This document shows positions 4,329-30,270 of a DNA stretch of 64,000 bases, piece after piece. Position 1 is the stretch's first letter; every line of letters starts with the position of its first letter. This DNA comes from Phytopythium helicoides (taxonomy: Eukaryota > Oomycota > Peronosporomycetes > Pythiales > Pythiaceae). The stretch covers positions 434,001 through 498,000 of the forward strand of contig JANFNE010000033.1 of NCBI GenBank assembly GCA_024867545.1, read 5' to 3'. Below the pieces are notes generated by a model. That model did no database searches, had not been told where the DNA came from, and saw only the letters and a program-made list of their open reading frames with translations. Position numbers and translations under genes: made by a program.

Positions 4329-4330
4329 GG

Positions 4331-10856: not shown

Positions 10857-11180
10857 GACCGTCAACACTCAGTGACCGTCGACACTCAGTGACCGTCGAC
10901 GCTCAGTGACCGTCGACGCTCAGTGCTCATCGACAATCAGTCCATCAACACTCAGTGACCGCCGACACTTAGCGACCGTCAACACTCAGTGACCGTCGAC
11001 GCTCAGTGCCCATCGATAAGTGCCCATCGACATTCAGTGACCGTCGACACCCAGTGCTCATCGACAATCAGTCCATCGACACTCGGTGATCGTCGACACT
11101 CAGCGACCGTCGACTCAGCGACCGTCGACGCGCGGCTACCATCGATGTCCGATAACAGTCGACAATCAACGACCATCGGC
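10857..11180. repeat. 17-bp minisatellite
   Basis: Tandem copies of CAGTGACCGTCGACACT with point variants (GCT, AAT ends; some CATCGA for CGTCGA) and a few short units. It lies just upstream of the 909-aa minus-strand gene. Confidence 0.85.
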
Positions 11181-11464
11181 ATCAAGCAGCCGTCGGTCCA
11201 GCGGTCCCGCGGAGGCAAGAGAGCCAACGACAAGGATGGGCATGAAGGGAATTCACAAGCGGTAGGACATCAAGGTTAGCGCAAGATGAGTGGCTAGGAT
11301 CAGTCTCGAATTTACTTCGGAGGGCGCAAGTCCTCACCTCTCTTTGGTTCTCCGTTTCGATTCTCATTCAAGTCTAACACTCAAGGGGAGTGGAAAGGTG
11401 ATACAAAAGGTTTTGGTCTGCTATTTGGCGCGTGCGGGAGAGCACCCCGCCACATACTACACAC

Positions 11465-11600
11465 CCGAGGAGTGAGGATTTCCACGCCGCGGCACACACT
11501 CCAAACCCCAACTCTACCTCAACCAGCGTGGGCACTACCCATCGAGATCGTGACCGAACGTCGCCCCAGGCCGACGGGTACACAACGTGACTATTACCAC
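11465..11600. repeat. Diverged dispersed repeat, copy A
   Basis: Shares blocks with 30143-30270: AGTGAGGATT-CCACGCCG and, about 45 bp on, GTGGGCACT-C-CATCGAGATCGTG. Gaps and substitutions between blocks indicate an old repeat. Its class is unknown. Confidence 0.55.
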
Positions 11601-12355
11601 ACCGGGGTAACCCCTCCGTAAGTCGGCATACACGGGCACGCGTGAGATAGGCGACGAGTCTGGTGATTCCAGACACGCGCTTCTCCACAAAGTCCTTGGT
11701 GCTTTAGCCTCTTGAGTGACATCTCCCTCTCAGCCTCTACTTCTTGGATGTTCTCGGGCTCCTTGCAGCTTTTTTATCATAATTTAGATTGCTCTACAGT
11801 TGGTATTTCATCGTCGACACTTGATTCACCGCATTCAGCAGCATGTTCGTCCACCAGTAGATATGATATATTTATGGTGAATATTCGTATCGTCAAATAT
11901 ATCATGGTAAACGAGGTTGTAAAGGTATAGTTTGCTCACTTCTTGAGCAACCGCAGTGGGATCGCTGGTAGTGGTGCTAGATTGGGTTCGAGCTCCTACT
12001 CAGCACAGTCAATCTGCGAGGATTCTTCAACTGGTCGCATTACGCTTGGCCATACCCGATTCGGTCTCATGATAAGACTGGATTGTAAGCAGCTGTCCAT
12101 GTGGAGGTCAACTATCGATAATGAATTGACGACCATCGACCAACGACCACCAACTGAGGAGAGCCTGAGCGATGGGCGTCTAACACTGAAGGATGAGCTA
12201 GATTAATCCACGGCACGGACATGAAATGAGTTGACGGTGCTTAAGTACGTGAGCACTCAGTTGATAATATGCGGTCAAGCAAGACTAAAGGGGAGCGCAT
12301 AGCGGTAAACGAAAGGGATAATATGTTATTGATACTATTCATAAAATTAGGTAGA
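11600..12355. other. Intergenic, no gene recognised
   Basis: AT content rises relative to neighbours. Short open frames here show no domain or codon pattern that supports a gene. Left flank of the G2 insertion. Confidence 0.6.
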
Positions 12356-12360
12356 GTACG

Positions 12361-12897
12361 TGTAACTGGGCTGCCCAGCTACGCGACTTACACGTGCGCG
12401 TGTAAGGAGGAAGCGTTGACTTGGTTAATGTATGCACACTGTACTGTGTACAGTGTGAGACGAAAGACACTTGACTGGTAGAAATGAGAACTGTATTGAT
12501 TGTTAGCAGCCCGCTAGACGGGTGCAATGGCTCCTGACCTCCTAGAAACTATATGCATTATTGCAGGCGCTCATGAGTGGCCATGAGCGCCGCACCAAAA
12601 ATGAACGACGCTGATTGGCTATTAGTGCCCGCTAACAGCCAATGAGAAGCGAGGACAGCCATGAATGGCTGTCCGGACGTACGCAGTGGAATAGTGACTC
12701 GGCACTATTCCGTCAGGAGCTTGACTAGCAGTGGTGTACCCCACACCACTGTCGACGCTTGGAACGGAGCCATGGTGACGCACCATTGCTCCGCAGATTT
12801 GTGCGTTTCGCACAATCTGCAACACACTAATTTGTGCCCAGCACAAAGTGTGACTCGTTTGTTCAGCCCACTGCACAAACTGTGTAACCCTGTTACA
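12361..12897 (-). repeat. G2 3' LTR (left copy), 537 bp, hairpin-rich
   Basis: Begins TGTAACTGGG and ends CCCTGTTACA; matches 29568-30104 except at one base. It is almost entirely made of consecutive inverted repeats: 12435-12457 (10-bp arms), 12566-12591 (10), 12653-12674 (9-10), 12688-12711 (9), 12729-12751 (9) and 12793-12820 (12 with one bulge). Confidence 0.95.
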
Positions 12898-12912
12898 CCC
12901 TCCCCCGTTAAG
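12898..12912 (-). other. G2 polypurine tract
   Basis: On the minus strand CTTAACGGGGGAGGG directly precedes the 3' LTR, the expected position of the plus-strand primer. Confidence 0.8.
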
Positions 12913-13038
12913 GTTGCAGCCCCGCTGTAAACCTGTCGGGTGGCACTTGTTGGTCGGATTCACTCTGCTAGCGCAGCAGAGCGACGGGGAGAAGAGAGCA
13001 GCGCGTGCGCGTGCTCCTTGGCGAGCTCATACAGCAAC

Positions 13039-16000
13039 ATGAGCTCGGGCAACGGCGACCTCGAGGAGAAAGCTCCCGCGCCGGCGCGCACCGCGCCGGC
13101 GGCTTCCACAACTTCAAGCGCGCCCGAGCGACAGCGTCTGTCGCTCGCTGACTATCAAGACCGTCTGCACCGCGCCCCGGTGCAGCGTGAAGAGGCCGCC
13201 GCTCTCGCAAGCGCGGCCAGTGCGCAACCGTCGTCGTCGTCAGCCCCGCTGACGACGTTGGAGATCTTCTTCGAGCCGCCCGAGGGCTCCGCGCCGGCGG
13301 CGGTGCTGCCACAAGCTTCCGGCTCGAGTGCGACTCGAGCCGCGCGTTCTATAGTCGACAAGCTGGCTGCGCCAGCGATGGACATGCGGTTCTTCACCGA
13401 GCCGCTGTCCGGCGCGTCGTCCTCGGACGACGCGGCCGAGGAAGAGAAGCCTGCGCGGCCGTCGTTGACCGCGCGGCGGACGCGCGAGGAAGGCGAGCTC
13501 TCGGACGAGGGCTCGGTGGTGAAGAAACTGAAGGGTGAGCCCTGCTCACCCGACGCTGTTGGAGGTAGTGAGGTCTTGGACACGAAGCTTGGACGGAGCG
13601 GAGGGAGTTCTTCACTTGGACAGAAGACCGGAGCGAAGACCACTTGAGGGGTAGAAGGAAGATTCGAAAGTGATTCGATTGAGGTCCTTAGTTCGCAACT
13701 ACTTGCTACCTCTAAGCCTGCCTGTCCTTTACTGGGTTCACTTCTACTTGATCTTTTCCTGGATACTGATTCACGGCAGCCAATCAGAGGGCGCCACGTG
13801 GATCCCATCTTGTACCCACAATCTCGTACCCACGAGTTGACGTAATCGATGAGCGTAATCAACGTGGGATCGCATTGGACTGCCTCGGGCTAGTCGGTCC
13901 AGGTCAAACCGGCTGCCCTCAACACGCCCCCTCAATGCGAAGTCCCATGGATGCCGAGAGCCGCCGTGAGTTCCGTGTGGCGAGGTCCCGGGAGCGCCTT
14001 GGTCATGATGTCGGCCAGCATCGTCGCAGTCTCGCAGTACTCGAGCTTGACTTCACCACGCTTGACTTCATCGCGGATGTGATGGTACTTGATGTCGATG
14101 TGCTTGGCGCGACCGTGGTTGACTGGGTTCTTGGTCATCTTGATGCACGACTGGTTGTCTTCGCGGATCATGAGCTCTGGTCCCGACTTGTTCGCCGCCG
14201 CAAGGATCTCGCAAACCACGCGATGAATCCACTTGCCTTCTTGGATGGCCAGGCTGAGCGCGATATACTCCGCTTCGCTTGTCGACAGAGACACACTTGA
14301 CTGCTTCTTGCTTCCCCAACTGACCGGCGCGCCCATCAACATGAAGGTGTAGCCGGATGTCGACTTGCGATCAGCGAGGTCACCAGCCCAGTCAGCGTCG
14401 GAGTAGCCGCGGAAGTCGATGACGTTGCCGGGCTTGAAGCAGATTCCGTGGTCCTTGGTGCCTTGCAAGTAGCGAAAGATACGCTTGACCGCAACCCAGT
14501 GCTCCTCTTGCGGGTTCTCCATGAAGCGCGATACGTAGCCCACAGCAAACGCGATGTCCGGTCGAGTCGCTGTCATCAGATGCATCAAGGCGCCGACCGC
14601 TTCCCGAAACGGAGCGTTCACCTTGGTAGATGCGTCGCTTGAAACCAGACGCGAACTCATGTCGACCGGACTCACCACAGCCTTGCACTGGAGCATGTTG
14701 AAGCGTGTGAGGATGTCGTTGATGTAGCGTCGCTGGCACAGTGTGATGCTTCCATCGGGTCCATAGACCAACTCGATGCCGAGCACGAACGCACACTTGC
14801 CGCTGTCGGTCATCTCGAAGCGCATCTTCAGGTCATACTTGGTGCGTGCAATCAGCTCGATCGAGCTTCCCGTCACCAGAACATCGTCGACGTAGACCAA
14901 GATAAGCACGCAGTGGTCGTTAACGATCTTGATGTAGAGACACGGGTCGAACGCTGACACTTGGAAGCCGATGGAGCACACGAACTCGTCGAAGGTCTCG
15001 TTCCACACACGCGAAGCTTGCTTGAGGCCGTAGATCGCCTTCACCAGCTCAAGGCAGTCAAAGCCGCCGTCCAACTCGACGCCTTCTGGAACCACACAGT
15101 ACACGACCTCCTTCATCACGCCGTATAAGAATGCCGTCACCACGTCCAGTTGATCGAGCTGCCAACCGAAGAAGACGATGAGCGCGATCACGATGCGCAG
15201 CGTCGCGTACTTGACCACGGGCGAGAACGTCTCCGTGTAGTCGATGCCATACTTCTGCTTGAATCCCTTGGCCACGAGGCGTGCCTTGTACTTCTCGATG
15301 GATCCGTCGGCCTTTCGCTTGATCTTGAATACCCACTTGGTGCCAATGGCGCGTTGTCCCGTTGGAAGCTTGGCCGCACGAAACACTCCTCGAAGTCGCA
15401 TCGATTCCAGTTCCGCGCGAATCGCTTTGCGCCAGTGAGCTTGGTCTGGACCGTTCACCGCTTCCTCGAATGTTGTTGGCTCGGAGAGGTCGGAGGCTTC
15501 AACAGTGTTGGCGCTTGCTCGCCAAAACACAGGAGGAGTCGAAGGGTCCGAGCCGTCGTGTTGGCCGCCAGATTTTTCTTCTTCATCTTCTTGGCGCGAG
15601 GGAGAACTGCGCGGCGCACTTGCTTCTTCCAATCCAACTCGGTGTCGAACAGCCCGCGATCTTCCAGTAGTGTCATCTTCAGTCGCCGATCGACTCTTGC
15701 GCTTCCCCGCCTGCGTGTAGTCCGTTTGTCCTGGTCCATCTTCAGCAATTTCGAGAGAGTCGAAGGCGAGATCTTCCACGTCTTCATCGGAGGCCGCTGG
15801 CGAGAACCCGAAAGTCGATTCGTCGAAGGTGACATCGCGAGTGATAACCACCTGCCCCGCCTCGATGTCATAAACCCGATAGGCCTTTGACGCTTCCTCA
15901 TATCCGACGAACAACCCAGCACGAGACTTCGGGTCCCACTTGAGCCGCTTCTCTTTCGGAGTCAGCACGTAAGCGCGACAACCGAACACACGCATGTGCT

Positions 16001-19000
16001 TCACACTTGGCTTGGACTTGTACAGAATCTCGAACGGAGTCTTGTGCTGGAACTTGGGAGACGGTAGACGATTCTTGACGTAGATGGCTGTCATCGCTGC
16101 CTCAGCCCAGAAGATCTTGTCCATCTTGGCGTGGTGAAGCATGCTGCGGCCGATCGTGACGATTGTCCGGATGGCTCGTTCTGCTGTGCCGTTGGTCTGG
16201 TGCGCGTAGGGAACCGTCGTTTGCTGCTCGATGCCTTTGTCTTCGTAGAACACCTTGAGCGAGTTGGTGGCAAACTCACGCGCTCCATCATGACGCACGA
16301 ACTTGACCTTCTTGCCGAACTGGTTCTGGACCTTGGTGATGTACGTCTTGATGCAGTCCTCGCTTTCCGACTTGGCACGCAGACAGAATCCCTTCATGCA
16401 TCCGCTGGCTTCGTCGACGATCAGCAGCAGATACTTGCTTCCACCCAAAGAGTCTTCTTCCATGGGTCCGCAGATGTCGAAGTGGAGCAACTCGAACGTG
16501 TCGTAGTGGCGCTTGTCACGGTTGCTTGGAAATGGCCTTTGGACCATCTTTCCTTGTTGACAGCCGCGGCACACGCTTGGTCCACTCGAGCTGGAGGGTA
16601 GCTTCGCGTCCTTGATCATTCCGTTGTCGACCATCTTGCGAAGCACCTCGACTGGAGCGTGACCCATACGCGCGTGCAGATCAACAGCTCTTCCACTGGT
16701 TGCCGCGTTAGCCGATCGTTGAGGCGTGCGAAGCCAGTAGAGTCCGTCAACGAGGTCTGCCGTCGCCACCACTTGCTTCGAAGCCTTGCGCGCAACGTGC
16801 ATCTTGGTGCCGTCAAAGATCACTTGGAACTGGCCACTCTTGTTGATTTGCGGCACCGATAGAAGATTCTTGCTCATGTCGGGGACATACAGCGCGTCCT
16901 TGATCTCGATCTCGCGCTCTTCACCGTTGGGCAGAAGCACTCGCTCGACGATGCTTCCCACACCCTTGATAGCCGCCTTGTTGCCGTTGGCCACCGATAG
17001 TTCGCCGTCGTCTCGCTCAATCAGGCTGGCGAACTTGGTCTTGTCGTTGCAGATGTGGTGCGTTGCGCCGCTGTCGACCGCCCACATTCCGGGCATCTTC
17101 ACGCCCGTCGAAACTCCACACTCGAGGGAAACCACAAACGCAACTCGCTGGTTGTCGTAGTCGTAGTCGTCGTTCCTCCACTGAGCGCTGTTGGCCCCGC
17201 GTCCACGGCCATTGCCGCCGCGTCTCGGACCTCCTCGGTTCTCGTCCTTCTGCTTGGTCCAGCACTTGTCAACCAAATGCCCCATCTTGCCGCAGTAAGT
17301 GCACTGGCGAGGCTCTCGGTCGACACTGAATGCCTTGGTCGCGTCTTCAGTCTTCATCGCCGGAGCCTTCTCGCCTTGCCGCTTGATATGCTCATTCGTG
17401 AGCACCTTCACAACGTCTCGCGTCCGCAGCTCTGCGTTGCTCATCTCCAAGTTGAGCACGACGTTCTCGTAGCTCTTGGGGAGACTGCGCAACAAGCAGA
17501 TCGCCACATCTTCGTCCTCCATCTTGGCGCCGATGCTGCTGAGCTTGGAGCTGATGTTGAGGACTTCATTGCAATGATGCAACACATTGCCGCCTTCCGC
17601 CATCTCCATGCTGAAGAGCTGTCGCTTCAAGTAGATGCGACCAGCCTTCTGCGATCCACCGTAGAGGGTCTTCAAGCGCTCCCACGCCACCCAGGCTTCC
17701 TCACAGTCGTCGACCACGTGATGGTAGTCCGCGTCCATGTGGAGCAGCATCAAGCCGAACGCGATGCTGCTTGCCTTGACGTAGTCGTCCTTGGCCCGCG
17801 GATCCGTGAAGCTCGGAGTCGTCTCGCGGTTCACGACATGCCACGTCGACTTGGTCAGGAACACGCCACGCATGTAGCGGCTCCAAGTCGCGTAGTTGTC
17901 TCCGTTGAACTTGTCGATGGAGACCTTGGTCGAGGCGTCTTGCGCAGAGGACATGGTGCTTGGGCTCATAACCTGTTGGAGGTAGTGAGGTCTTGGACAC
18001 GAAGCTTGGACGGAGCGGAGGGAGTTCTTCACTTGGACAGAAGACCGGAGCGAAGACCACTTGAGGGGTAGAAGGAAGATTCGAAAGTGATTCGATTGAG
18101 GTCCTTAGTTCGCAACTACTTGCTACCTCTAAGCCTGCCTGTCCTTTACTGGGTTCACTTCTACTTGATCTTTTCCTGGATACTGATTCACGGCAGCCAA
18201 TCAGAGGGCGCCACGTGGATCCCATCTTGTACCCACAATCTCGTACCCACGAGTTGACGTAATCGATGAGCGTAATCAACGTGGGATCGCATTGGACTGC
18301 CTCGGGCTAGTCGGTCCAGGTCAAACCGGCTGCCCTCAACAGACGCTGCAGCGCGCGACCGCGCGCGGGTTCCAGATCGTGACGCGCGCGCTGCGAGCGC
18401 GCGCGGTGAAGACACTGCATCCAGATCGACTGCACCACGCGGTGCAGTCGTGCGAGCTGAGCGACCGTCGTGGATGCCCGACGCCGAGACCATTCGGCGT
18501 CGCTATGGGTTTTCACACCCAGATCACAGCGAAATGCTGTACGTCTGCACGCGCATTGCAGACGACGAGGTTGCGCGCGCGCTCAACCTGCCTCCAGCAA
18601 GCGAGCGCCGGCGCGATTATTACATCGCGCTGTTCCATGAGTTGCGTTTCCTTCGCGGGAAGGGAACGAGCGATCGAAGCAAGATCTCCGTCGAGAAGGC
18701 GCTCCAACAAGCTTGGAGCGATTTCGTCACCAATTTCAACAGAGATCCAGCCGCTTACCGTAAGCGGCTGCAAGACGCGCGTGAACGTTACAATACGTTC
18801 TCGCGTACGCTTCAGATCGATCGCCTGCACGACCAGTGCGTGCAGGCGGGTGTGGCTTGCGCAGTACCCAGCACTGAGTACTGCCGCAGATGTTGGCCGG
18901 GCGACCCACGTCTTACAGACTGGGATTGCCGCGGGTATGGCGGCGCCATACCCGACTCGATCGTCTCGGAGCGCCGTCGGCTGTGGCCGGACCGGCCGCT

Positions 19001-19592
19001 CGACGAGTTTGACTACGCGTCGTCGTCGCGGTCGTACGAGGCAAGTGCTGCGCCTCGTACGCGATCACCAGATCCGGGACGTCGTGCATCAGGACGTCCC
19101 GCGGCTCCCACGTGTCCTGTTGGGGAGGAAATCCTCTCCAACGAATTCGAAAATGCGTCGGACTTGGGGAGTCCGGTGCCGTACAGTGAGATACGACCCG
19201 CTCAACAATCCAGCGGGTCGCGCCAGCCGCATCGCGCAGCGGCGGCGGCGGCGGAGGGTGCGCCGCGCGCGTTGACTGCGGAGTCAACGCGTCCTGATGG
19301 TGAGCGTCTTCTTCAACTCCAGCTGCAGATCTCGCAGCTGGAGACCGAGATCGAGCGGCGCTTCCGCGAGCGCGCCGAGGACGCTGCGGTGATTTCACGC
19401 CTCCAGACGCAGCTGGAGGCGGAGGTGAACGCTCGTCGCCGCTTGGCGGCGAGCCATCGCGAGTTCCAGGCGAGCTACCGCCGGTTCCGCCGTCGCGGGG
19501 ATCCGATTCTTCGCGACGCGGCTCACGTGGAGACGCGTTCTCCGAGCCCTCTTCCAGAGCGCTCGAGCGACTTTGAGGCGTGTTACTCGTGA
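13039..19592 (+). CDS. G2 antisense ORF (aORF), about 587 aa, split by copia C1
   Basis: Plus-strand frame opposite to gag-pol. Segments are 13039-13556 and 18347-19592. Ignoring C1 and one copy of its target duplication, they join in the same frame (518 + 1246 nt = 588 codons with stop). ATG at 13039 is the first in frame; the frame is open further up to a GTG at 12940. The N-terminus is Ala/Ser/Pro-rich with an acidic patch and a basic VVKKLKGE motif. The middle (from about 18470) is globular-looking, with helical segments ([25 protein letters not shown]) and a Cys-containing [11 protein letters not shown] stretch. The C-terminus is a predicted coiled coil ([16 protein letters not shown] onward). 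The last 680 nt overlap the pol chromodomain region on the other strand. Function unknown. A chance frame in GC-rich DNA is possible, but the first approximately 1.1 kb has no competing gene on the other strand. Confidence 0.6.
13557..13924 (-). repeat. C1 3' LTR, 368 bp
   Basis: Ends TGTTG / CAACA. Next to it inside is the purine run GAGGGGGCG that primes plus-strand synthesis. Confidence 0.95.
13932..17969 (-). CDS. C1 Gag-Pol polyprotein, 1345 aa
   Basis: Single uninterrupted frame. ATG at 17969 lies within the primer binding site; a second ATG follows 15 nt later. Domains in order: Gag with [15 protein letters not shown] near the N-terminus; zinc knuckle [14 protein letters not shown] at about 222-236; protease VDSGATHH near 297; integrase with HARMGHAP ... 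CRGCQQGK, Asp in HFDICGP (about 495), Asp in RHDGAREF (about 558) and Glu in NGTAERAIR (about 594); reverse transcriptase with LVYVDDVLV at about 1024; RNase H with [14 protein letters not shown] at about 1190 and EDNQSC. Integrase before RT is the copia order. No stop or frameshift, so the protein should be functional if expressed. Confidence 0.96.
17974..18341 (-). repeat. C1 5' LTR, 368 bp
   Basis: Same sequence as 13557-13924. The primer site (complementary to the anticodon arm of initiator tRNA-Met) abuts it at 17955-17973. Confidence 0.95.
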
Positions 19593-20012
19593 GGGCACCG
19601 TCTTCGCCCTCACGGTCGCGCCACTGGCGGTATGGCTTCAAGCGCCCGACGTAAAACGTCGGGTGCAGCTGCATGCTGGACGGGATGTCCAGTGTGTACG
19701 CTGTACCACGGCGCGCGAGCACCGTGAACGGGCCGATGTAGCGCGGAGCGAGCTTGTTCGCTCCGTAGTCCGGCACTGCATGTGTAGGAAGGTTGCTTGT
19801 GCTAAGCAACACTAATGAATTTGGTTCAAACTCATTGACGTTCCCTCGTCCATGCTTGTCTGCGTTCAGCTTCTGTCGATCGACAGAGGCCGCCAGTACG
19901 TCTTGGACGTACCGGATCACTGCTTGACGACGGTCCAAGAACGGCTTGGACTGGTCGGAACTTGCCTTTGCCGCAGACAGCGTTACGTGCTGTCCGCGTT
20001 TCTTCGTGTTTG
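18913..20012 (-). CDS. pol: G2 pol, 3' segment: integrase C-terminus and chromodomain
   Basis: Continuation of the pol frame from 24796 after the C2 insertion. The codon phase matches exactly across the junction. It begins just after the integrase catalytic Glu region and contains the integrase C-terminal fold (APRYIGPFTVLARRG ... HPTFYVGRLKPYRQ), a long low-complexity Ser/Pro/Arg linker, and a chromodomain ([10 protein letters not shown] ... [17 protein letters not shown]) near the end. Chromodomains steer gypsy integration to chromatin marks in related elements (family knowledge). It overlaps the antisense ORF on the other strand over 18913-19592. Confidence 0.92.
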
Positions 20013-20379
20013 TGTTGAGGGCAGCCGGTTTGACCTGGACCGACTAGCCCGAGGCAGTCCAATGCGATCCCACGTTGATTACGCTCATCGATTACGTCAA
20101 CTCGTGGGTACGAGATTGTGGGTACAAGATGGGATCCACGTGGCGCCCTCTGATTGGCTGCCGTGAATCAGTATCCAGGAAAAGATCAAGTAGAGTGAAC
20201 CCAGTAAAGGACAGGCAGGCTTAGAGGTAGCAAGTAGTTGCGAACTAAGGACCTCAATCGAATCACTTTCGAATCTTCCTTCTACCCCTCAAGTGGTCTT
20301 CGCTCCGGTCTTCTGTCCAAGTGAAGAACTCCCTCCGCTCCGCCCAAGCTTCGTGTCCAAGACCTCACTACCTCCAACA
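20013..20379 (+). repeat. C2 5' LTR, 367 bp
   Basis: TGTTGAGGG ... CCTCCAACA. Contains an imperfect direct repeat GTGGGTACGAGATT / GTGGGTACAAGAT and a TGACGTAA-like box on the opposite strand, possible promoter elements. Confidence 0.95.
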
Positions 20380-20398
20380 GGTTATGAGCCCAAGCACC
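20380..20398 (+). other. Copia primer binding site, half-tRNA type (C2)
   Basis: GGTTATGAGCCCAAGCACC directly abuts the LTR. Its complement contains GGGCTCATAACC, the anticodon loop with CAU and the G-rich stem typical of initiator tRNA-Met, not a tRNA 3' CCA end. Drosophila copia and yeast Ty5 prime from such a cleaved half-tRNA. All four copies carry the same site. Confidence 0.8.
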
Positions 20399-23300
20399 AT
20401 GTCCTCTGCGCAAGACGCCTCGACCAAGGTCTCCATCGACAAGTTCAACGGAGACAACTACGCGACTTGGAGCCGCTACATGCGTGGCGTGTTCCTGACC
20501 AAGTCGACGTGGCATGTCGTGAACCGCGAGACGACTCCGAGCTTCACGGATCCGCGGGCCAAGGACGACTACGTCAAGGCAAGCAGCATCGCGTTCGGCT
20601 TGATGCTGCTCCACATGGACGCGGACTACCACCACGTGGTCGACGACTGTGAGGAAGCCTGGGTGGCGTGGGAGCGCTTGAAGACCCTCTACGGTGGATC
20701 GCAGAAGGCTGGTCGCATCTACTTGAAGCGACAGCTCTTCAGCATGGAGATGGCGGAAGGCGGCAATGTGTTGCATCATTGCAATGAGGTCCTCAACATC
20801 AGCTCCAAGCTCAGCAGCATCGGCGCCAAGATGGAGGACGAAGATGTGGCGATCTGCTTGTTGCGCAGTCTCCCCAAGAGCTTCGAGAACGTCGTGCTCA
20901 ACTTGGAGATGAGCAACGCAGAGCTGCGGACGCGAGACGTTGTGAAGGTGCTCACGAATGAGCATATCAAGCGGCAAGGCGAGAAGACTCCGGCGATGAA
21001 GACTGAAGACGCGACCAAGGCGTTCAGTGTCGACCGAGAGCCTCGCCAGTGCACTTACTGCGGCAAGATGGGGCATTTGGTTGACAAGTGCTGGACCAAG
21101 CAGAAGGACGAGAACCGAGGAGGTCCGAGACGCGGCGGCAATGGCCGTGGACGCGGGGCCAACAGCGCTCAGTGGAGGAACGACGACTACGACTACGACA
21201 ACCAGCGAGTTGCGTTTGCGGTTTCCCTCGAGTGTGGAGTTTCGACGGGCGAGAAGATGCCCGGGATGTGGGCGGTCGACAGCGGCGCAACGCACCACAT
21301 CTGCAACGACAAGACCAAGTTCGCCAGCCTGATTGAGCGAGACGACGGCGAACTATCGGTGGCCAACGGCAACAAGGCGGCTATCAAGGGTGTGGGAAGC
21401 ATCTTCGAGCGAGTGCTTCTGCCCAACGGTGAAGAGCGCGAGATCGAGATCAAGGACGCGCTGTATGTTCCCGACATGAGCAAGAATCTTCTATCGGTGC
21501 CGCAAATCAACAAGAGTGGCCAGTTCCAAGTGATCTTCGACGGCACCAAGATGCATGTTGCGCGCAAGGCTTCGAAGCAAGTGGTGGCGACGGCAGACCT
21601 CGTTGACGGACTCTACTGGCTTCGCACGCCTCAGCGATCGGCTAACGCGGCAACCAGCGGAAGAACGATTGACCTGCACGCGCGCATGGGTCACGCTCCA
21701 GTCGAGGTGCTTCGCAAGATGGTCGACAACGACATGATCAAGGACGCGAAGCTACCCTCCAGCTCGAGTGGACCAAGCGTGTGCCGCGGCTGTCAACAAG
21801 GAAAGATGGTCCAGAGGCCGTTTCCAAGCAACCGTGACAAGCGCCACTACGACACGTTCGAGTTGCTCCACTTCGACATCTGCGGACCCATGGAAGAAGA
21901 CTCTCTGGGTGGAAGCAAGTATCTGCTGCTGATCGTCGACGAAGCCAGCGGATGCATGAAGGGATTCTGTCTGCGTGCCAAGTCGGAAAGCGAAGACTGC
22001 ATCAAGACGTACATCACCAAGGTCCAGAACCAATTCGGCAAGAAGGTCAAGTTCGTGCGTCATGATGGAGCGCGTGAGTTTGCCACCAACTCGCTCAAGG
22101 TGTTCTACGAAGACGAAGGCATCGAGCAGCAAACGACGGTTCCCTACGCGCACCAGACCAACGGCACGGCAGAACGAGCCATCCGGACAATCGTCACGAT
22201 CGGCCGCAGCATGCTTCACCACGCCAAGATGGACAAGATCTTCTGGGCTGAGGCAGCGATGACAGCCATCTACGTCAAGAATCGTCTACCGTCTCCCAAG
22301 TTCCAGCACAAGACTCCGTTCGAGATTCTGTACAAGTCCAAGCCAAGTGTGAAGCACATGCGTGTGTTCGGTTGTCGTGCTTATGTGCTGACTCCGAAAG
22401 AGAAGCGGCTCAAGTGGGACCCGAAGTCTCGTGCTGGGTTGTTCGTCGGATACGAGGAAGCGTCAAAGGCCTATCGGGTTTATGACATCGAGGCGGGGCA
22501 GGTGGTTATCACTCGCGATGTCACCTTCGACGAATCGACTTTCGGCTTCTCGTCAGCGGCCTCCGATGAAGACGTGGAAGATCTCGCCTTCGACTCTCTC
22601 GAAATCGCTGAAGATGGACCAGGACAAACGGACTACACGCAGGCGGGGAAGCGCAAGAGTCGATCGGCGACTGAAGATGACACTACTGGAAGATCGCGGG
22701 CTGTTCGACACCGAGTTGGATTGGAAGAAGCAAGTGCGCCGCGCAGTTCTCCCTCGCGCCAAGAAGACGAAGAAGAAAAATCTGGCGGCCAACACGACGG
22801 CTCGGACCCTTCGACTCCTCCTGTGTTTTGGCGAGCAAGCGCCAACGCTGTTGAAGCCTCCGACCTCTCCGAGCCAACTACATTCGAAGAAGCAGTGAAC
22901 GGTCCGGATCAAGCTCACTGGCGCAAAGCGATTCGCGCGGAGCTGGAATCGATGCGACTTCGAGGCGTGTTTCGTGCGGCCAAGCTTCCAACGGGACAAC
23001 GCGCCATCGGCACCAAGTGGGTTTTCAAGATCAAGCGAAAGGCCGATGGGTCCATCGAGAAGTACAAGGCACGCCTCGTGGCCAAGGGATTCAAGCAGAA
23101 GTACGGCATCGACTACACGGAGACATTCTCGCCCGTGGTCAAGTACGCAACGCTGCGCATCGTGATCGCGCTCATCGTCTTCTTCGGTTGGCAACTCGAT
23201 CAACTGGACGTGGTGACGGCATTCTTATACGGCGTGATGAAGGAGGTCGTGTACTGTGTGGTTCCTGAAGGCGTCGAGTTGGACGGCGGCTTTGACTGCC

Positions 23301-24421
23301 TTGAGCTCGTGAAGGCGATCTACGGCCTCAAGCAAGCTTCGCGTGTGTGGAACGAGACCTTCGATGAGTTCGTGTGCTCCATCGGCTTCCAAGTGTCAGC
23401 GTTCGACCCGTGCCTCTACATCAAGATCGTCAACAATCACTGCGTGCTCATCTTGGTCTATGTCGACGATGTTCTGGTGACGGGAAGCTCGATCGAGCTG
23501 ATTGCGCGCACCAAGTATGACCTGAAGATGCGCTTCGAGATGACCGACAGCGGCAAGTGTGCGTTCGTGCTCGGGATCGAGTTGATCTATGGACCCGATG
23601 GAAGCGTCACACTGTGCCAGCGACGCTACATCAACGACATCCTCACACGGTTCAACATGCTCCAGTGCAAGGCTGTGGTGAGTCCGGTCGACATGAGTTC
23701 GCGTCTGGTTTCAAGCGACGCATCTACCAAGGTGAACGCTCCGTTTCGGGAAGCGGTCGGCGCCTTGATGCATCTGATGACAGCGACTCGACCGGACATC
23801 GCGTATGCCGTGGGCTACGTATCGCGCTTCATGGAGAACCCGCAAGAGGAGCACTGGGTTGCGGTCAAGCGTATCTTTCGCTACTTGCAAGGCACCAAGG
23901 ACCACGGAATCTGCTTCAAGCCCGGCAACGTCATCGACTTCCGCGGCTACTCCGACGCCGACTGGGCTGGTGACCTCGCTGATCGCAAGTCGACATCCGG
24001 CTACACCTTCATATTGATGGGCGCACCGGTCAGTTGGGGAAGCAAGAAGCAGTCAAGTGTGTCTCTGTCGACAAGCGAAGCAGAGTATATCGCGCTCAGC
24101 CTGGCCATCCAAGAAGGCAAGTGGATTCATCGCGTGGTTTGCGAGATCCTTGCGGCTGCGAACAAGTCGGGACCAGAGCTCATGATCCGCGAAGACAACC
24201 AGTCGTGCATCAAGATGACCAAGAACCCAGTCAACCACGGTCGCGCCAAGCACATCGACATCAAGTACCATCACATCCGCGATGAAGTCAAGCGTGGTGA
24301 AGTCAAGCTCGAGTACTGCGAGACTGCAACGATGCTGGCCGACATCATGACCAAGGCGCTCCCGGGACCTCGCCACACGGAACTCACGGCGGCTCTCGGC
24401 ATCCATGGGACTTCGCATTGA
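20384..24421 (+). CDS. C2 Gag-Pol polyprotein, 1345 aa
   Basis: Uninterrupted, same domain order as the C1 protein (Gag, zinc knuckle, protease, integrase, RT, RNase H) with scattered substitutions. Two consecutive start codons, at 20384 and 20399, the first overlapping the primer binding site. The RT active-site YVDD is encoded near 23457 and the protease DSGA near 21278. The stop at 24419-24421 is followed at once by the polypurine tract GAGGGGGCG and the 3' LTR. Gag and Pol are one frame without a visible recoding signal, so Gag excess would need splicing or processing. Confidence 0.96.
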
Positions 24422-24428
24422 GGGGGCG

Positions 24429-24795
24429 TGTTGAGGGCAGCCGGTTTGACCTGGACCGACTAGCCCGAGGCAGTCCAATGCGATCCCACGTTGATTACGC
24501 TCATCGATTACGTCAACTCGTGGGTACGAGATTGTGGGTACAAGATGGGATCCACGTGGCGCCCTCTGATTGGCTGCCGTGAATCAGTATCCAGGAAAAG
24601 ATCAAGTAGAGTGAACCCAGTAAAGGACAGGCAGGCTTAGAGGTAGCAAGTAGTTGCGAACTAAGGACCTCAATCGAATCACTTTCGAATCTTCCTTCTA
24701 CCCCTCAAGTGGTCTTCGCTCCGGTCTTCTGTCCAAGTGAAGAACTCCCTCCGCTCCGCCCAAGCTTCGTGTCCAAGACCTCACTACCTCCAACA
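24429..24795 (+). repeat. C2 3' LTR, 367 bp
   Basis: I see no difference from the 5' LTR, implying very recent insertion. Confidence 0.95.
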
Positions 24796-27700
24796 GTTTG
24801 CATTCTCACGCAGACTCGGCGTCGAGACTGCGGGTCCTCCCCCACTCAAGGTTGGAGCCAACGTCCCCAGGACGGAAGGCAGACGTGGGTGCCGCATGGC
24901 ATTCACGAAGAACGGTGTATGCCCGTGCGAGGCATGCACCGAGTTGTTGATGGCGAACTCAGCCATCGGCAGACACTCGCTCCAGTCCCGGAACGAGTGC
25001 GCGTAGCTGCGCAGGACGTCACCGAGCACGCGATTGACGCGTTCGGTCTGACCGTCCGTTTCAGGGTGGTCAGTTGTCGACATCGACAACTGTGTGCCAA
25101 GGAGCTTGAACAGCTCCTGCCAGAAGCCACCGCGGAACCGCGGATCGCGGTCCGACACGACCTCACGCGGCATGCCGTGAGATCGGAATACTGTGTCAAA
25201 GAACAGGCGTGCCGTTTGCGCGCCTGTTATAGTCTTGGGAACAGCAGCAAGATGCACCATCTTGCTGAAGCGGTCGACGAAGACGGCGACACCCGTGCGA
25301 CGCTTTGCGTCGGGCGGAAGCCCAAACACGAAGTCCATGGAGACGGACTCCCAACACTCCGATGGGATCGGTAGTGAGTTGAGCGGCGCCTGTGACACAG
25401 GTGCTGGTTTGACACGCTGGCAAATCTCGCAAGCACGAACGTACTTGCGCACCCACTTGTACTGGTGCGGCCAGTAGAAGTCACGCGCGAGGAGGACGTA
25501 CGTCTTCTCGCGTCCAAGATGGCCGGCCACCGGCGCATCATGGTACTCGTAGAGGATCCGCAGCTTGAGATCCTCGCTGTTTGGCACGACGACGCGACGC
25601 GCGTCGCCGTCGGTGTCGCGATAGAGCAGGACACCGTCGTGCACAGCAAAGCGGTGTGCACGAGCTCGGAGGTGTGGAGGAAGCGCCTTCAGAGACACTG
25701 GTGACGGTGTCTCTGCATACTTTAGAAGTCGCTTGATGTCCTCATCAAGCGCGTAGGCGGACTTGACGTCGTCGATCAGCGACGACCTTGGGACGTCAGC
25801 GCTCCAAGCGCCGACGGCGTTAACTTGTTCCTCCGGCCTGACTGCATAGTCGGGTCGCCGCGATAGAGCGTCAGCGACGACGTTGAGCCTTCCAGGTTTG
25901 TACTCAACCTGGAAGTTGTACTCTGCGAAGAAGGATAGCCACCTGGCCATCCTTTGCGAGATGTGTGGCGTCTTCACGGCCGTCCGCAGGGACGCATGGT
26001 CCGTGTAGACGGTGAACGGTCTATCACCCAGCAGATAGACTCGGAACTTCGCAAGCGCGTACTTCATGGCAAGGAGCTCCTTGTCATGAACGGGGTAGTT
26101 CCGCTCAGCTGGCTTGAGCTGTCGCGACTGGTAACTGACGACACGATCACGCCCCTCGTGATCGCGCTGCATCAATGCACATCCGATTGCAAAATCGGAT
26201 GCATCACACACGACGTGGAAATCTCGATCTTGGTCAGCGATGGCCAAGATTGGTGCCTCGGTCAAGCCCTGCTTGATCGCCTCGAAGGCACCTTGACACT
26301 CGGGTGTCCATACCCATGCAGCCTCTTTCTTCAAGAGCTGTGAGAGCGGGCGAATGCGGCCCGCATAGTTGCTCACGTACTTGCACAAGTACGTGGCGAG
26401 GCCAAGGAACTGACGTAGTTCTTTGGGGTTGTTTGGCTGCGGCCACTCGTTGATCACCCGGACTTTCTCGGGGTCCGGGCGAACGCCATCACGTCCGACG
26501 AGACACCCAAGCACGGGTATCTCGTTCGCCCCGAAGATGCACTTCTTCAGATTTGCATAGAGCTTATGCTTTCGCATGAGCTCCAGCAGGCGACGGAGGT
26601 GCTCCTTATGCACCTCAACGTCAGTCTTCTCATCCACAGCCCGGCTGTGGATGTACACGTCGTCGAAGTAGCTCGGTGCGAAATCTCGCACCGGCCGCAA
26701 CAGGTGTGTCACGCATCTGTTGAACGTTGCAGGGGCGTTCTTGAGTCCTTGTGGCATCACTAGCCACTCCCACAGCATCCCGCTTGGGGTGCTGACTGCC
26801 GTGAGCGGGATGTCCTGCTCACGCATGAGGACTTGGTAGAAGCCATCGCGCAGGTCGAGAGTACTGAAGATTGTACTCCCGCTCATCGAATCGATGATGA
26901 CATCCTTCCTCGGTATCGGCGTCTGTGCCGGCACCGTTGCATCGTTCAGCTTATTGTAAGCGTGAACGATGCGCCAGCCACCCTGTGCCTTCTTGACACA
27001 GAATGTCGGGGCACTGTGCGGTGAGGTCGACTCACGCACTTGCCCTGCCTTCTGACGAGCTTCAAAGAACTCGTCGATCGCCTTGACTTGTTCACGCGGC
27101 AGTGGCCACTGCCGCGTCACGCAGTACTTCGTCCCCGGCACGAGATCGATCTCGTGCCGAACTCCCTTGTCCTTTGGGAGTTCTTCCGGAACCTCGTCCG
27201 GGAATACGTCCGCGTATTCACGCAGGACGTCGTAGAACGGACTCGATTCGAGGGCGGCCCAGCCTTGCTCCTCGAATCGCTCACGCTTGGTCTTCGCACT
27301 GAGGGTCATTTCATCCTCAGGATTCTTGCTTACGAGGAGTTGACGCAACTCCTCGACCTTCTTGTTGACGTCGATCGTCATCTCTCGCTCAGAGATGACG
27401 CACACTTGTTCGAGCGCGCCCTCGCGCAGCTCCTTCGAGAATCGCTTCCAGCTCATGACTGGAAGGGCAACCAACTCCGATGCCGTGCTCGGAGGTTGCT
27501 CGACCTCGGTAACTCTGCACTCAACACCAGTGCAGGTTTGTGTCATGGCGTTAATCGCCACGACGCTCCTCTTGTTTACTCTCGTCGGCTTTGGTTGGCC
27601 GACGGCAATGCGAGCCCTGCTCGTTGATCGCTGCTCTGACCCGGTCAAGAGCGCGTCAGTGGTGGCAGTGCTATGCTCACCACTGTTGTCTTCCTTCGCT

Positions 27701-28500
27701 TCCACCTCTCCAAGAGGGAGCGTGCTGCTTGACATCTCCTTCCCCGAAGGAGATGAAGCCGTCTCACTCTGCTCGCGCGTCCGCGACAGAGGAATCTTCT
27801 TGGTCGCTGGTCTCTTCGTTGAGACAGCGTTCGACGCCCGGCGTCTGCCCTCGGCTCCCTGAGCGGAGGGGCGTCCGACTCCCGGAGCCGGACGGTTATC
27901 TTCTTCTCGATCCAGGCTGACAGGGCCATCGCTCGCTGTCGCCTGGGATCGCTGAGAGCCAGCGGTGCCGACAGGGCTCACGCTCACTGTCGCACTCGAC
28001 GCTTCCACGGCCTTGTGGGAGCGTGCTCTGAAGTTGATCGATCGGGTCACCCAATCGATCACAGGCTCATGCCGTCGCAACCATGGCATGCCCAGAATCA
28101 TATCGTACTTGTCGTCGAGATCAAGTACGATGCAGTCTTCCCGGAAGACTCGTCTCTTGAATCGGAAGCACGCGTTCACGACGCGCTTCCGCGTGCTCAG
28201 CTCGGCCCCTGTGGCCAAGCGCACCACCAAATCGCTTCGAGGAGCAGCAGTCTCCTCGAAGCACACCTTCTGCAGGCTCTGACGTCGAATGAAGTTGTTC
28301 GACGCGCCTGAATCCACCAACGCGCGGAGGTTGCTACCCTCCGACGCGACCTCGAGGACGATCAGCCCGGCTGACCCGTCCTCCTCTTCACAGTGCGAGT
28401 CCTTCGCACTGGGGGCAGCGACGGTCACATTGCCAACATCGGCTCGTGACGTCGCTTCACCAGTAGGGCGCCCCGCCCCTACTGGTTGTTGCCGTTTTTT
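24796..28500 (-). CDS. pol: G2 pol, 5' segment: protease, RT, RNase H, integrase core
   Basis: Frame entered by -1 frameshift from gag at 28494-28500. Aspartic protease RALVDSGASNNF near 28310-28340; a variable Ser/Glu-rich spacer; reverse transcriptase with LPREQVKAIDEFFEARQKAG, PQGLKNAPATFNR and YFDDVYIHS (near 26640-26665); RNase H with FHVVCDASDFAIGCAL near 26165-26215 and YTDHASLRTAV; integrase zinc-binding AGHLGREKTY ... CEICQRVK; core Asp in SMDFVFGLP, Asp in SDRDPRFRGGF, Glu in DGQTERVNRVL. It then meets the C2 insertion, where an apparent stop comes from the C2 LTR. The frame resumes at 20012. No other lesion is visible. Confidence 0.94.
28460..28500 (-). promoter_or_regulatory. -1 programmed ribosomal frameshift signal, gag to pol (G2)
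   Basis: A AAA AAC at 28494-28500 in gag phase, 8-nt spacer (28486-28493), perfect 9-bp stem-loop at 28460-28485 containing the gag stop codon. The arrangement is the same as in G1. A GCCCC about 50 nt downstream could pair with the GGGGC loop to form a pseudoknot (speculative). Confidence 0.87.
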
Positions 28501-29519
28501 GGTGGACCGCGCGGACGGAATCCGTCGGCGCGCATCCCACGCCGAGGCGGGCGCTGACCGCCTCGCGTGCACTCGCGAGCATAGTGGCCCCGACGGCCAC
28601 ACAGGAAGCACTCTTGCTCGTGCTTCGGCTTGCGCGGTTGCTGCCGACGTTCGACAGCAGCCGAGGACAGATCCATCGGCTCTGGCTCGTCAACCCGAAG
28701 ACGCGGTCGACGGTGGTGGACGACAGCATACTCTTCAGCTTGATTCAAGCTGAAGTCTTCGGCGAAGGCGATCTCAATCGCCTCCTTCATCGTCGATGGG
28801 TAGACGCGGAACAGATGGGTCTTCACAGGCCCATCGTTCAATCCCTTCATGAAGGTGGCGACCTTCGTGGCTTCGGTGAGCGGTTCGCTCACAACATTCG
28901 AAGCAAAATAGCTTGCTTGCTCCGCGTAAGCTCGGATGTCGAGCTTGCCTTGCTTGAGCTCGAGGAATTGAGCCCTCGAGCGGAATTCGTTCTGCGTCGG
29001 CTCGAATGCCGCACGCAGTTCGGTCTTGAACGCTTCGTACGTGGCGAAGCACGTAGGCTCCGCGAGCCTACGACCATACGCCCAACGCCTAGCGCTGCCG
29101 CCAAGGCACGACATGGCGTACATGACTTGAACCGACGGATCCCCGATCCGTCGTAGCGAGATGGAGTCTTCGAGCTCCACGAACCACCGAAGCAGTGGTT
29201 CGCCCTTCTTCCCATGGTAGGGAGGCACCGTGAGCTTCACGGACGCGCCCCGCGCGCCCGGCTCCCCAGGAGCGGTCTTCTGTTGCTTCTGCTCGAGTTC
29301 ATGCAGCATGAACCCGCGAATCGAAGCGAGGTGCTGGTCCTTGGACTGTGACTGCAGTATCGCAGCCACGGATGCTTCTCCGATCACTCCAGCGAGACGC
29401 TGGAACGCCAACCACTCGGCGTCCGAGAGATGCGGACACATCTCTCGTGTGATGTCGTGGGAACCGGTGAGCGGCGCTCCGCCCATCGGCTGGTCCTCAC
29501 CCGCGACGTGCGCACTCAT
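28479..29519 (-). CDS. gag: G2 Gag, 346 aa
   Basis: ATG at 29519. Retrotransposon Gag region (LRWFVELEDSISL, RRWAYGRRLAEPTCF, FEPTQNEFRSRAQFLELKQG) and a CCHC zinc knuckle CFLCGRRGHYAREC at about residues 304-317, then an Arg/Gly-rich tail that would bind RNA. Very similar in layout to G1 Gag. The stop lies in the frameshift stem-loop. The coding sequence contains many perfect inverted repeats, for example at 29133-29153. Confidence 0.92.
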   Translation of the reverse strand: MSAHVAGEDQPMGGAPLTGSHDITREMCPHLSDAEWLAFQRLAGVIGEASVAAILQSQSKDQHLASIRGFMLHELEQKQQKTAPGEPGARGASVKLTVPPYHGKKGEPLLRWFVELEDSISLRRIGDPSVQVMYAMSCLGGSARRWAYGRRLAEPTCFATYEAFKTELRAAFEPTQNEFRSRAQFLELKQGKLDIRAYAEQASYFASNVVSEPLTEATKVATFMKGLNDGPVKTHLFRVYPSTMKEAIEIAFAEDFSLNQAEEYAVVHHRRPRLRVDEPEPMDLSSAAVERRQQPRKPKHEQECFLCGRRGHYARECTRGGQRPPRRGMRADGFRPRGPPKNGNNQ

Positions 29520-29547
29520 TGCGCTCGGAATAGTCGGTCGTGAGACG

Positions 29548-29565
29548 GACTACAAAGTGCTACCA
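29548..29565 (-). other. G2 primer binding site
   Basis: TGGTAGCACTTTGTAGTC, two bases inside the 5' LTR. It would pair with a conventional tRNA 3' end. The first 11 bases match the G1 site. Confidence 0.65.
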
Positions 29566-29567
29566 GG

Positions 29568-30104
29568 TGTAACTGGGCTGCCCAGCTACGCGACTTACAC
29601 GTGCGCGTGTAAGGAGGAAGCGTTGACTTGGTTAACGTATGCACACTGTACTGTGTACAGTGTGAGACGAAAGACACTTGACTGGTAGAAATGAGAACTG
29701 TATTGATTGTTAGCAGCCCGCTAGACGGGTGCAATGGCTCCTGACCTCCTAGAAACTATATGCATTATTGCAGGCGCTCATGAGTGGCCATGAGCGCCGC
29801 ACCAAAAATGAACGACGCTGATTGGCTATTAGTGCCCGCTAACAGCCAATGAGAAGCGAGGACAGCCATGAATGGCTGTCCGGACGTACGCAGTGGAATA
29901 GTGACTCGGCACTATTCCGTCAGGAGCTTGACTAGCAGTGGTGTACCCCACACCACTGTCGACGCTTGGAACGGAGCCATGGTGACGCACCATTGCTCCG
30001 CAGATTTGTGCGTTTCGCACAATCTGCAACACACTAATTTGTGCCCAGCACAAAGTGTGACTCGTTTGTTCAGCCCACTGCACAAACTGTGTAACCCTGT
30101 TACA
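29568..30104 (-). repeat. G2 5' LTR (right copy), 537 bp
   Basis: Counterpart of 12361-12897; one visible difference (C versus T in GTTAA[C/T]GTATGC). Followed by target copy GTACG at 30105. Confidence 0.95.
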
Positions 30105-30142
30105 GTACGACTGGTACCCGCGCGAGGGAATCTAGTCAATCC

Positions 30143-30270
30143 ACCCGCGAAGTGAGGATTCCCACGCCGTAGTTCCCAATAGCCCGTCTCTCCCATGTCA
30201 GTGTGGGCACTGCTCATCGAGATCGTGGCTCGAATCCGATAGATACATAGCTGTTTGACGTCTGGACTAC
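30143..30270. repeat. Diverged dispersed repeat, copy B
   Basis: Matches copy A at 11465-11600 in two conserved blocks. Lies 40 bp from the right end of G2. Confidence 0.55.

Follow-up and report, generated by a model that had tools for sequence, protein, structure and literature searches.

Why a retrotransposon should be tiled end to end with perfect inverted repeats is the question raised by G2, an element in the 64,000-nucleotide stretch of Phytopythium helicoides DNA analysed here (the window). G2 is a chromodomain Ty3/gypsy LTR retrotransposon, ordinary apart from its hairpins. It shares with other elements of this group, which we take to be the chromoviruses, the domain set (gag with CCHC; pol in the order PR-RT-RH-INT; a chromodomain after integrase), the LTRs (TG..CA, 537 bp, one mismatch between them) and a target-site duplication, here the 5-bp GTACG at 12356-12360 and 30105-30109. 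A purine-rich tract directly before the 3′ LTR is, by position, a putative PPT. The features of the locus are:

12361..12897, minus strand: G2 3′ LTR, 537 bp, TG..CA; 6 stems of at least 8 bp
12898..13555, minus strand: G2 piece from the 3′ LTR to copia C1; 8 stems of at least 8 bp
13556..18341, minus strand: nested copia C1; stem excess absent
18342..20011, minus strand: G2 piece whose open frame 18913-20043 carries a Tf2-like SH3 and a chromodomain
18342..19592, plus strand: long open frame antisense to G2; Pfam, none matched
20012..24800, plus strand: nested copia C2; stem excess absent
24801..28689, minus strand: G2 pol with protease, RT, RNase H and integrase domains; 10-bp hairpins without mismatch, 11
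26180..26201, no strand: 9-bp hairpin within G2 pol
27094..27117, no strand: perfect palindrome, 24 nt, 12-bp arms, loop 0
27136..27159, no strand: perfect palindrome, 24 nt, 12-bp arms, loop 0
28459..28486, minus strand: 10-bp hairpin with 8-nt loop, spanning the gag stop codon
28479..29549, minus strand: G2 gag (capsid domain, one CCHC knuckle)
29568..30104, minus strand: G2 5′ LTR; the same 6 stems of at least 8 bp as the 3′ LTR

The antisense frame was rejected as a gene: besides matching nothing in Pfam, it is open in four of four near-identical G2 copies, which is uninformative because these copies are too alike.

Hairpins in G2 and in control sequences

The G2 pieces (12361-13555, 18342-20011 and 24801-30104; 8,169 nt, both LTRs counted) were scanned separately for stems with loops of 0-15 nt, using dinucleotide shuffles as the null. 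They contain 74, 51 and 34 stems with arms of at least 8, 9 and 10 bp, against 2.7, 0.6 and 0.1 in the shuffles; the claim that stems of at least 8 bp lie far above chance is therefore borne out more strongly than it was made. The piece at 18342..20011 has 19 stems of at least 8 bp (loop at most 15) where 0.8 are expected. All ten stems cited as examples in the original prediction are inverted repeats, found where its coordinates place them, two of them complete palindromes. The six stems described in the LTR recur, at 8 bp or more, in each LTR, and the proposed stem every 40-60 bp agrees with one 8-bp hairpin (at most one mismatch) per ~49 nt. With one LTR counted (7,645 nt, loops 3-10, 10 shuffles), perfect 10-bp arms number 26 against 0, those with one mismatch 62 against 2.0, and those with two 69 against 21.9. 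Against codon-preserving shuffles, G2 pol has 11 perfect 10-bp hairpins (0.10 expected) and 43 with at most one mismatch (2.2 expected). Its stems fall in the three codon registers 20, 14 and 9 times; spacers in G2 measure 3-10 nt, most often 3.

No excess was found in the copia elements C1-C4 (each 1, 1 and 0 stems of at least 8, 9 and 10 bp, against 1.1-1.5, 0.2-0.5 and 0-0.2 in shuffles) or in the host genes at 52000-64000 (2, 0 and 0 against 4.3, 1.1 and 0.5). The corresponding counts are 3, 1 and 0 against 1.9, 0.6 and 0 in G1 (1-8000), 1, 0 and 0 against 0.3, 0 and 0 in the flank 30105-31795, and 2, 1 and 0 against 1.3, 0.4 and 0.1 in the flank 7000-12000. Stem density in G2 is clearly above both dinucleotide- and codon-preserving shuffles; of the elements proposed as a test of equal density, the copia elements show no excess and G1 is enriched in short stems. 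A GC content of ~0.6 might suggest that base composition or codon usage yields stems by chance, but this is ruled out by both nulls, and similarly GC-rich host genes have no excess. The hairpins are written through the LTRs and coding parts by synonymous and non-coding letter choice.

Relatives in the host genome

The DNA around ~43 of the 139 RT matches of the host genome was sampled, giving 28 rows in the tree, where the relatives of G2 form one RT clade (support 100/98). Hairpins are enriched in all 18 clade rows sampled, with stem ratios of 1.74-4.84; L053, outside the clade, has a ratio of 1.97. Arm length varies by family: G2 arms reach 10 bp and those of L012 9 bp, L015 has arms of 8 and 6 bp and G1 of 5-6 bp, and in L049 arms start at 5 bp. 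G1 had been described as encoding the same protein motifs without the hairpins. Its segment 950-971 indeed lacks the stem present at 26180-26201 in G2, and long stems are absent, but hairpins are not: there are 63 5-bp stems where 38.6 are expected and 23 6-bp stems where 9.9 are expected. Because the whole sampled clade bears hairpins of family-specific geometry, the contrast is a matter of degree.

The closing pair is biased to 5′C in G2 and L015 and to 5′G in L012/L013. Arm sequences vary from stem to stem, with weak motifs. Stem positions differ between G2 and L012; in the hairpin across the gag stop codon, the inner nine pairs and the loop are identical in this diverged relative (6027-6052). 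Arms above 10 bp are scarce (38 of 10 bp, three of 11 bp and none longer, pooled over seven sequences), and a single 12-bp stem occurs in each of L010 and L011. A sharp ban on 11-bp stems was rejected: W (1/27) and L009 (2/27) fit it, whereas L010 (6/29) and L011 (5/27) hardly do, so that avoidance is a tendency only. A minimal 3-nt loop, considered as proof of hairpins, is clear in G2 and in the 4-bp stems of L029 but not in L012, L013 and L049, whose stems of at least 6 bp show no clear shortage of 0-2 nt spacers. Purine-rich loops on the sense strand are a weak lean, significant in one of ten sets (L029, p 0.03), and were dropped as an explanation.

Folding energy, strand symmetry and change between copies

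MFED was calculated for the sense strand in 300-nt windows with dinucleotide shuffles. In the clade it is 21.9% for G2c, 28.5% for L049, 13.5% for L029, 9.2% for G1, 6.5% for L013, 6.0% for L012 and 4.2% for L015, against -1.8% for C1, -1.2% for genes, -2.3% for L019 and -0.8% for L054. Among four RT loci tested from outside the clade, L023 (6.6%) and L051 (7.8%) are as high as L012 and L015. The G2 pieces (16.7-21.9%) exceed the 3% threshold for GORS (PMC3950689). The native HCV and MNV regions reach 10.9% and 9.0% with another folding program (PMC3950689); G2 and L049 reach two to three times these values, and L012 and L015 lie below them. Under the codon-preserving null with RNA parameters, folding z is below zero on both strands in eight of eight clade ORFs (six families), weakly so in L015 (-0.31/-0.12), and is 0.04 to 0.67 in the copia and GPAT controls. 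Folding z is stronger with DNA parameters in all eight ORFs, a weak advantage since the GPAT control also shifts, by ~0.4, at least as much as L012, L013 and L015. With RNA parameters, G2 pol folds better on the antisense strand (by +2.68 kcal/mol, sense minus antisense, with an s.e. of 1.00), and in the other seven ORFs the excess on that strand does not go beyond about one standard error (1.2 at most).

Pairing in the stems is Watson-Crick only and folding is about strand-symmetric. G.U and A.C number 26 and 25 in 9-bp stems of G2, 19 and 13 in its 10-bp stems, and 21 and 27 at sites common to all G2 copies; in relatives they number 3 and 8 (L012), 5 and 9 (L013), 19 and 22 (L015), 6 and 9 (L029), 22 and 28 (L016) and 11 and 20 (G1). 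Recent G2 polymorphisms favour sense G.U over A.C, 17 to 5; this surplus, with that in 10-bp stems, hints at sense-RNA tolerance, and L012/L013 lean the opposite way. Simple sense-RNA selection was set aside, G.U and A.C being about equal overall. Of the suggested genome-wide RNA folding as in RNA viruses, the fold was found, but the RNA-virus type fits poorly because sense G.U is generally no commoner than A.C and both strands fold alike.

One diverged pair, L012 and L013, is available; it is 25% apart and its counts are small. For stems of at least 9 bp, the arms are wholly identical in 5/8 and 5/12 (largely the same stems, from both sides), against 0.9% expected from control positions and 9.7% after ascertainment correction (P = 4e-4 and 4e-3); for stems of at least 8 bp the figures are 6/13 and 6/17 (P = 0.003 and 0.014). 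Loops and flanks drift while many arms stay letter-identical: in the eight stems common to the pair, loops differ at 10 of 34 sites. None of these eight loops is inverted, two of them being unchanged. Compensated pairs make up 1/147 and 1/188 pair cells in L012/L013 58-5146 (22 and 30 changed), and 4/48 changed cells in L057/L058. Whether stems are conserved by compensatory changes in other copies had been proposed as a check; in this pair many arms are kept, and such changes are few. Identical arms, drifting loops and few compensatory changes favour selection over arm-to-arm copying, the two causes originally offered.

Across the four copies of G2, arm columns (55/1,427) vary almost as much as the rest (283/6,148) when stems from any copy are counted; with stems from one copy, arm divergence is 1.0% against 2.8%, partly through ascertainment. 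As picking stems for their perfection in a single copy by itself cuts the expected divergence in half, low arm divergence among 95-99% identical copies is a hint only, and with little difference under stems from any copy it was set aside as evidence. Where G2 stems are perfect, the relatives are partly complementary, by estimate about as identity alone predicts. Single-arm templating between G2 and its relatives was also set aside: the asymmetry is absent, in a comparison of low power because third codon positions differ by 53%. Changes show no overall excess of one-arm clustering (one 4-0 and one 1-4 case), with p 0.34, 0.50 and 0.65 for arm asymmetry, again at low power. A comparison of L029 copies (24-36 compensated cells) was discarded because poorly aligned ends were mixed in.

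Explanations and meaning

We tentatively prefer, at a little less than an even chance, a GORS-like whole-length fold maintained by selection on the folded strands, a reading drawn from sequence comparison. The clade elements are written as local Watson-Crick hairpins in a row, with arms of 5-10 bp and loops that mostly measure 3-9, so that each strand, sense or antisense, would fold on itself with stems mostly of at most 10 bp; sense-antisense duplexes would then fail to nucleate, leaving little substrate for Dicer. The host genome has three Piwi and six RNase III matches, the latter including two tandem pairs. In P. infestans, Gypsy elements are matched along their sequence by small RNAs of either orientation (PMC3522703), and local structure lowers duplex formation in Qbeta-replicated RNA (PMC6913131). 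Avoidance of such duplexes would be the likeliest purpose of the fold, in a host with Dicer-like and Argonaute genes, though taken alone this step is rather unlikely. Selection offers no obvious account of the closing-pair bias or the family-specific arm length. The near-equal arm variation in G2 copies, the unshared G2/L012 stem positions, the recent lean of G2 to sense G.U, the 12-bp stems of L010 and L011 and the values of L023, L051 and L053 also count against the selected fold.

Somewhat unlikely is a mutational origin, in which RT or cDNA repair switches template in quasi-palindromes and copies arm from arm with no selection; arm length and end base would then reflect each family's enzyme. 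It would suit the Watson-Crick-only, strand-symmetric pairing, the family-specific arms and closing pairs, the confinement to one RT clade with copia, other RT loci and genes spared, and the variability of G2 arms; template switching is known to perfect and create hairpins (PMC8794818, PMC8604942). Homogenising, however, predicts mostly compensated pairs, and these are rare in both pairs of copies; no common loop is inverted, changes lie on both arms (at low power), and identical arms in L012/L013 exceed the neutral expectation. We think it rather improbable that both operate, each family writing hairpins with a ruler (arms 10, 9, 8 or 5 bp, closing base set by enzymes or Gag) and selection retaining folding of both strands, which would deny RNAi its double-stranded trigger.

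Dispersed stem-loops that bind Gag/nucleocapsid for packaging, with Gag reading the family's stem length and closing pair, would explain family-specific geometry, hairpins in LTR, gag and pol, freely evolving loops and the recent lean to G.U; the predicted preponderance of G.U over A.C is not general (26 vs 25 in G2, 11 vs 20 in G1) and the antisense strand folds about equally well, making this a doubtful account. Selection on single-stranded minus cDNA, where hairpins would shield the cDNA or help shed RNA fragments in reverse transcription, is just as doubtful: Watson-Crick-only pairing suits DNA, and the DNA-parameter advantage and the antisense excess in G2 pol point the same way, but that excess is slight in seven of eight ORFs and other LTR elements of the genome manage without hairpins. 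Double-stranded palindromes acting as protein sites or cruciforms are very improbable; strand symmetry and the short spacers of L012, L013 and L049 would fit, whereas the stems are unlike one another and the G2 spacers peak at 3 nt.

Like GORS viruses, the elements are locally paired along their whole length, coding sequence included, to a degree above that of dinucleotide shuffles, and in those viruses too the fold is proposed to hide nucleic acid from host sensing; unlike them, this is an LTR retrotransposon clade with discrete, perfect, strand-symmetric Watson-Crick hairpins and family-specific arms. Nematomorph mitochondrial palindromes (PMC6649704) are likewise many perfect repeats in coding sequence, fewer in stricter registers, but reach 284 bp and may, per the authors, burden mtDNA maintenance; here arms are mostly 5-10 bp, clade-specific and in mobile elements. 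Template-switch products (PMC8794818, PMC8604942) also give coding DNA perfect Watson-Crick inverted repeats whose spacers are short, yet the marks expected of them, namely multi-base changes on one arm, inverted spacers and pairs that are mostly compensated, are not seen beyond chance here. Qbeta-replicase RNAs (PMC6913131) share local self-folding that discourages plus-minus duplexes, but are an RNA replicon in vitro and not a retroelement. Targeted literature searches found no description of hairpin tiling in chromodomain Ty3/gypsy or other LTR elements, in line with the original prediction.

In the usual view, transposons counter silencing through concealment, mutation or suppressors that they encode. 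The present findings suggest an element clade shaped to keep its own strands folded; if true, genome-wide folding would be a strategy open to retroelements. Two families are folded more strongly than the quoted RNA viruses, and hairpin geometry differs per family. The series of arm lengths from 5 to 10 bp would be natural material for testing the benefit of folding, and raises the question of what fixes hairpin length, which is testable in any genome with such elements.

Identity and hairpin content of G2

The Ty3/gypsy element G2 is a young chromodomain element interrupted by two later copia insertions, as its gag and pol domain set, LTRs and target-site duplication indicate. Gag contains a capsid domain and one zinc knuckle and is followed by protease, RT, RNase H, integrase, SH3 and chromodomain; the 537-bp LTRs differ at one site and the 5-bp duplication is GTACG. 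Following the 5′ LTR is CCTGGTAGCAC, which may resemble an initiator-Met primer site. The closest named relatives of the pol product are from Phytophthora cinnamomi and Globisporangium splendens, the closest overall being metagenome proteins. Across 90% or more of its sequence, GPAT, the host gene used as a control, is 48–56% identical to proteins of Nothophytophthora and Phytophthora; its identity to environmental proteins reaches 82%. These matches place the host, an oomycete, close to the named genera.

12361-13555, 18342-20011 and 24801-30104: the three pieces of G2
18342-19592: reading frame of 416 codons on the strand opposite the G2 chromodomain region; it is uninterrupted in each of the four near-identical copies and has no Pfam match
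28459-28486: hairpin across the gag stop codon, with 26 letters identical in the related locus L012 (local 6027-6052) despite about 30% divergence; perhaps a gag-pol recoding signal
46068-51900: 124-bp satellite array with 66 stems of at least 7 bp (3.8 expected; figure inflated by repetition); the unit at 46186 has 8-bp CG arms and a 7-nt spacer

A 125-bp array adjoining L012 (about 7435-8960) carries a 9-bp version of the satellite stem with a 7-nt loop.

All ten inverted repeats cited in the original prediction are present in G2 at the positions given there. A scan of the three pieces for perfect inverted repeats (stems) with loops of 0–15 nt found 74, 51 and 34 at minimum arm lengths of 8, 9 and 10 bp, respectively, against 2.7, 0.6 and 0.1 expected from shuffles; the same scan gave counts near expectation in the copia elements C1–C4 and the G2 flanks, and below it in host genes. 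With loops of 3–10 nt, 7,645 nt of G2 contain 26 perfect 10-bp hairpins (none in 10 shuffles) and 62 with one mismatch (2.0 expected). The excess persists against codon-preserving shuffles, pol having 11 perfect 10-bp hairpins compared to a mean of 0.10 after synonymous codon permutation. Non-overlapping 8-bp hairpins with at most one mismatch number 156 per 7,645 nt (about 1 per 49 nt), and such hairpins cover 42–45% of the G2 pieces. Loops are mostly 3–9 nt; those under 3 nt are rarer than 3-nt loops in G2, a depletion not clear in the related loci L012, L013 and L049.

Hairpin tiling in the RT clade

The genome has at least 139 RT matches. All four G2 copies at ≥97% identity, including G2 itself, are tiled, as are other families of its clade, with stem dimensions that differ by family. 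L012 and L013 (pol 70% identical to G2) have 9-bp arms with a G..C outer pair in 37/42 and 27/36 stems of at least 8 bp, respectively (24/29 in L012 without 13 stems in the adjoining satellite array). In L015 the arms are 8 and 6 bp long and the outer pair is C..G (17/21 stems of at least 8 bp; 31/41 of exactly 6 bp), the pair also found in 50 of 65 G2 stems. Arms are from 5 bp upward in L049, L050, L052 and L056 (in L049, stems of exactly 5 bp number 62 against an expected 16.9, and those of 4 bp 78 against 69.6) and 4–7 bp in L029, L030, L032 and L055. The predicted contrast between G2 and its relative G1 is one of degree: arms in G1 and its kin are 5–6 bp long.

In a 28-row RT tree the tiled families form a single clade (support 100/98). 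Hairpin tiling marks this clade, whose lowest values overlap with those outside it: the ratio of stems of at least 5 bp over shuffles is 1.74–4.84 in the 18 clade rows and 0.68–1.97 in the 10 outside, where L053 (1.97), L027 (1.56) and L028 (1.52) are highest. L027, whose RT is placed outside the LTR rows of the tree, also has a perfect inverted repeat close to that RT, its 57-bp arms separated by no more than 15 nt.

No described LTR element with hairpin tiling was found in the literature searched, most subscription papers being outside its reach. The nearest kinds are the genome-scale ordered RNA structure (GORS) of viruses and the coding palindromes of nematomorphs.

Turnover of stems and symmetry of pairing

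G2 and L012, which differ at 53% of third codon positions, carry their stems in different places, and their arms are as divergent as the surroundings. L012 and L013 are 25% divergent outside stems (3,684 columns), and arms of stems of at least 9 bp are wholly identical in 5/8 and 5/12 cases (largely the same stems; P = 4e-4 and 4e-3), compared to 0.9% at control positions, or ~10% after allowing for picking perfect stems in one copy. The loops of eight shared stems differ at 10/34 sites, with no spacer inversion among them. The remaining stems are present in one copy only, with changes on one arm or both. Conservation by compensatory change was not borne out (1/147 and 1/188 cells compensated; for L057/L058, a comparison that overlaps this one, 4/48 of the changed cells). 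Identical arms, few compensated pairs and private stems together suggest that stems are gained and lost, yet many are frozen letter by letter while present. Among the four G2 copies arm columns vary at 3.9% vs 4.6% elsewhere, as expected if most variation arose post-insertion, which gives selection no support. At about columns 3700-3900 of the L012/L013 alignment, divergence drops from 15–20% or more to 0–6%, likely a recombination junction between element lineages.

Sense G.U pairs were in general not enriched among single mismatches inside stems.

Single mismatches inside stems (G.U, A.C, other where counted)
G2, 9-bp stems: 26, 25, 26
G2, 10-bp stems: 19, 13, 19
L012: 3, 8
L013: 5, 9
L015: 19, 22
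L029: 6, 9
L016: 22, 28
G1: 11, 20
Common to all four G2 copies: 21, 27, 34
Polymorphic with a Watson-Crick (WC) pair in some G2 copy: 17, 5, 1

The polymorphic mismatches run in the opposite direction from the shared ones.

Folding and possible function

All eight clade ORFs fold better than codon-preserving shuffles on both strands (sense/antisense z of -1.90/-2.23 in G2 pol, -2.86/-2.44 in L049 and merely -0.31/-0.12 in L015), an excess seen in neither copia nor GPAT. DNA parameters give larger z in all eight, although the GPAT control also moves, from 0.05 to -0.38. The GORS measure (MFED, the percentage folding-energy excess over dinucleotide shuffles) is 21.9% sense and 24.4% antisense in G2c, 28.5% and 30.0% in L049, 9.2% in G1, 6.0% in L012 and 4.2% in L015, and below zero in copia and gene controls; two native viral regions gave 9.0% and 10.9% with another folding program (PMC3950689). 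Among four RT loci tested outside the clade, L023 and L051 reach 6.6% and 7.8% and the other two are below zero. The excess in L023 and L051 is moderate and somewhat sense-biased (antisense 3.6% and 4.1%), with no clear long-stem excess.

Symmetric pairing means that both strands count or that the underlying process does not distinguish them. Selection on folded strands is the most likely mechanism of tiling, at a little under an even chance. Templated copying of one arm from the other is less favoured and rather unlikely, since free copying would leave compensated pairs in place of frozen arms; it is kept alive by the family-specific arm-length ruler and closing pair, which duplex avoidance, the function favoured under selection, leaves without explanation. 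The same ruler and closing pair keep alive an improbable third reading, in which the hairpins are Gag-binding sites.

Under selection on folding, strands folded on themselves would avoid pairing into sense-antisense duplexes; the host genome carries Argonaute (three Piwi matches) and Dicer-like genes (six RNase III matches, including two tandem pairs). One study reports small RNAs on both strands of P. infestans Gypsy elements (PMC3522703). Duplex avoidance, as judged from sequence, may be the function of hairpin tiling, and would account for its WC-only symmetry, its reach along the whole element and stems that seldom exceed 10 bp.
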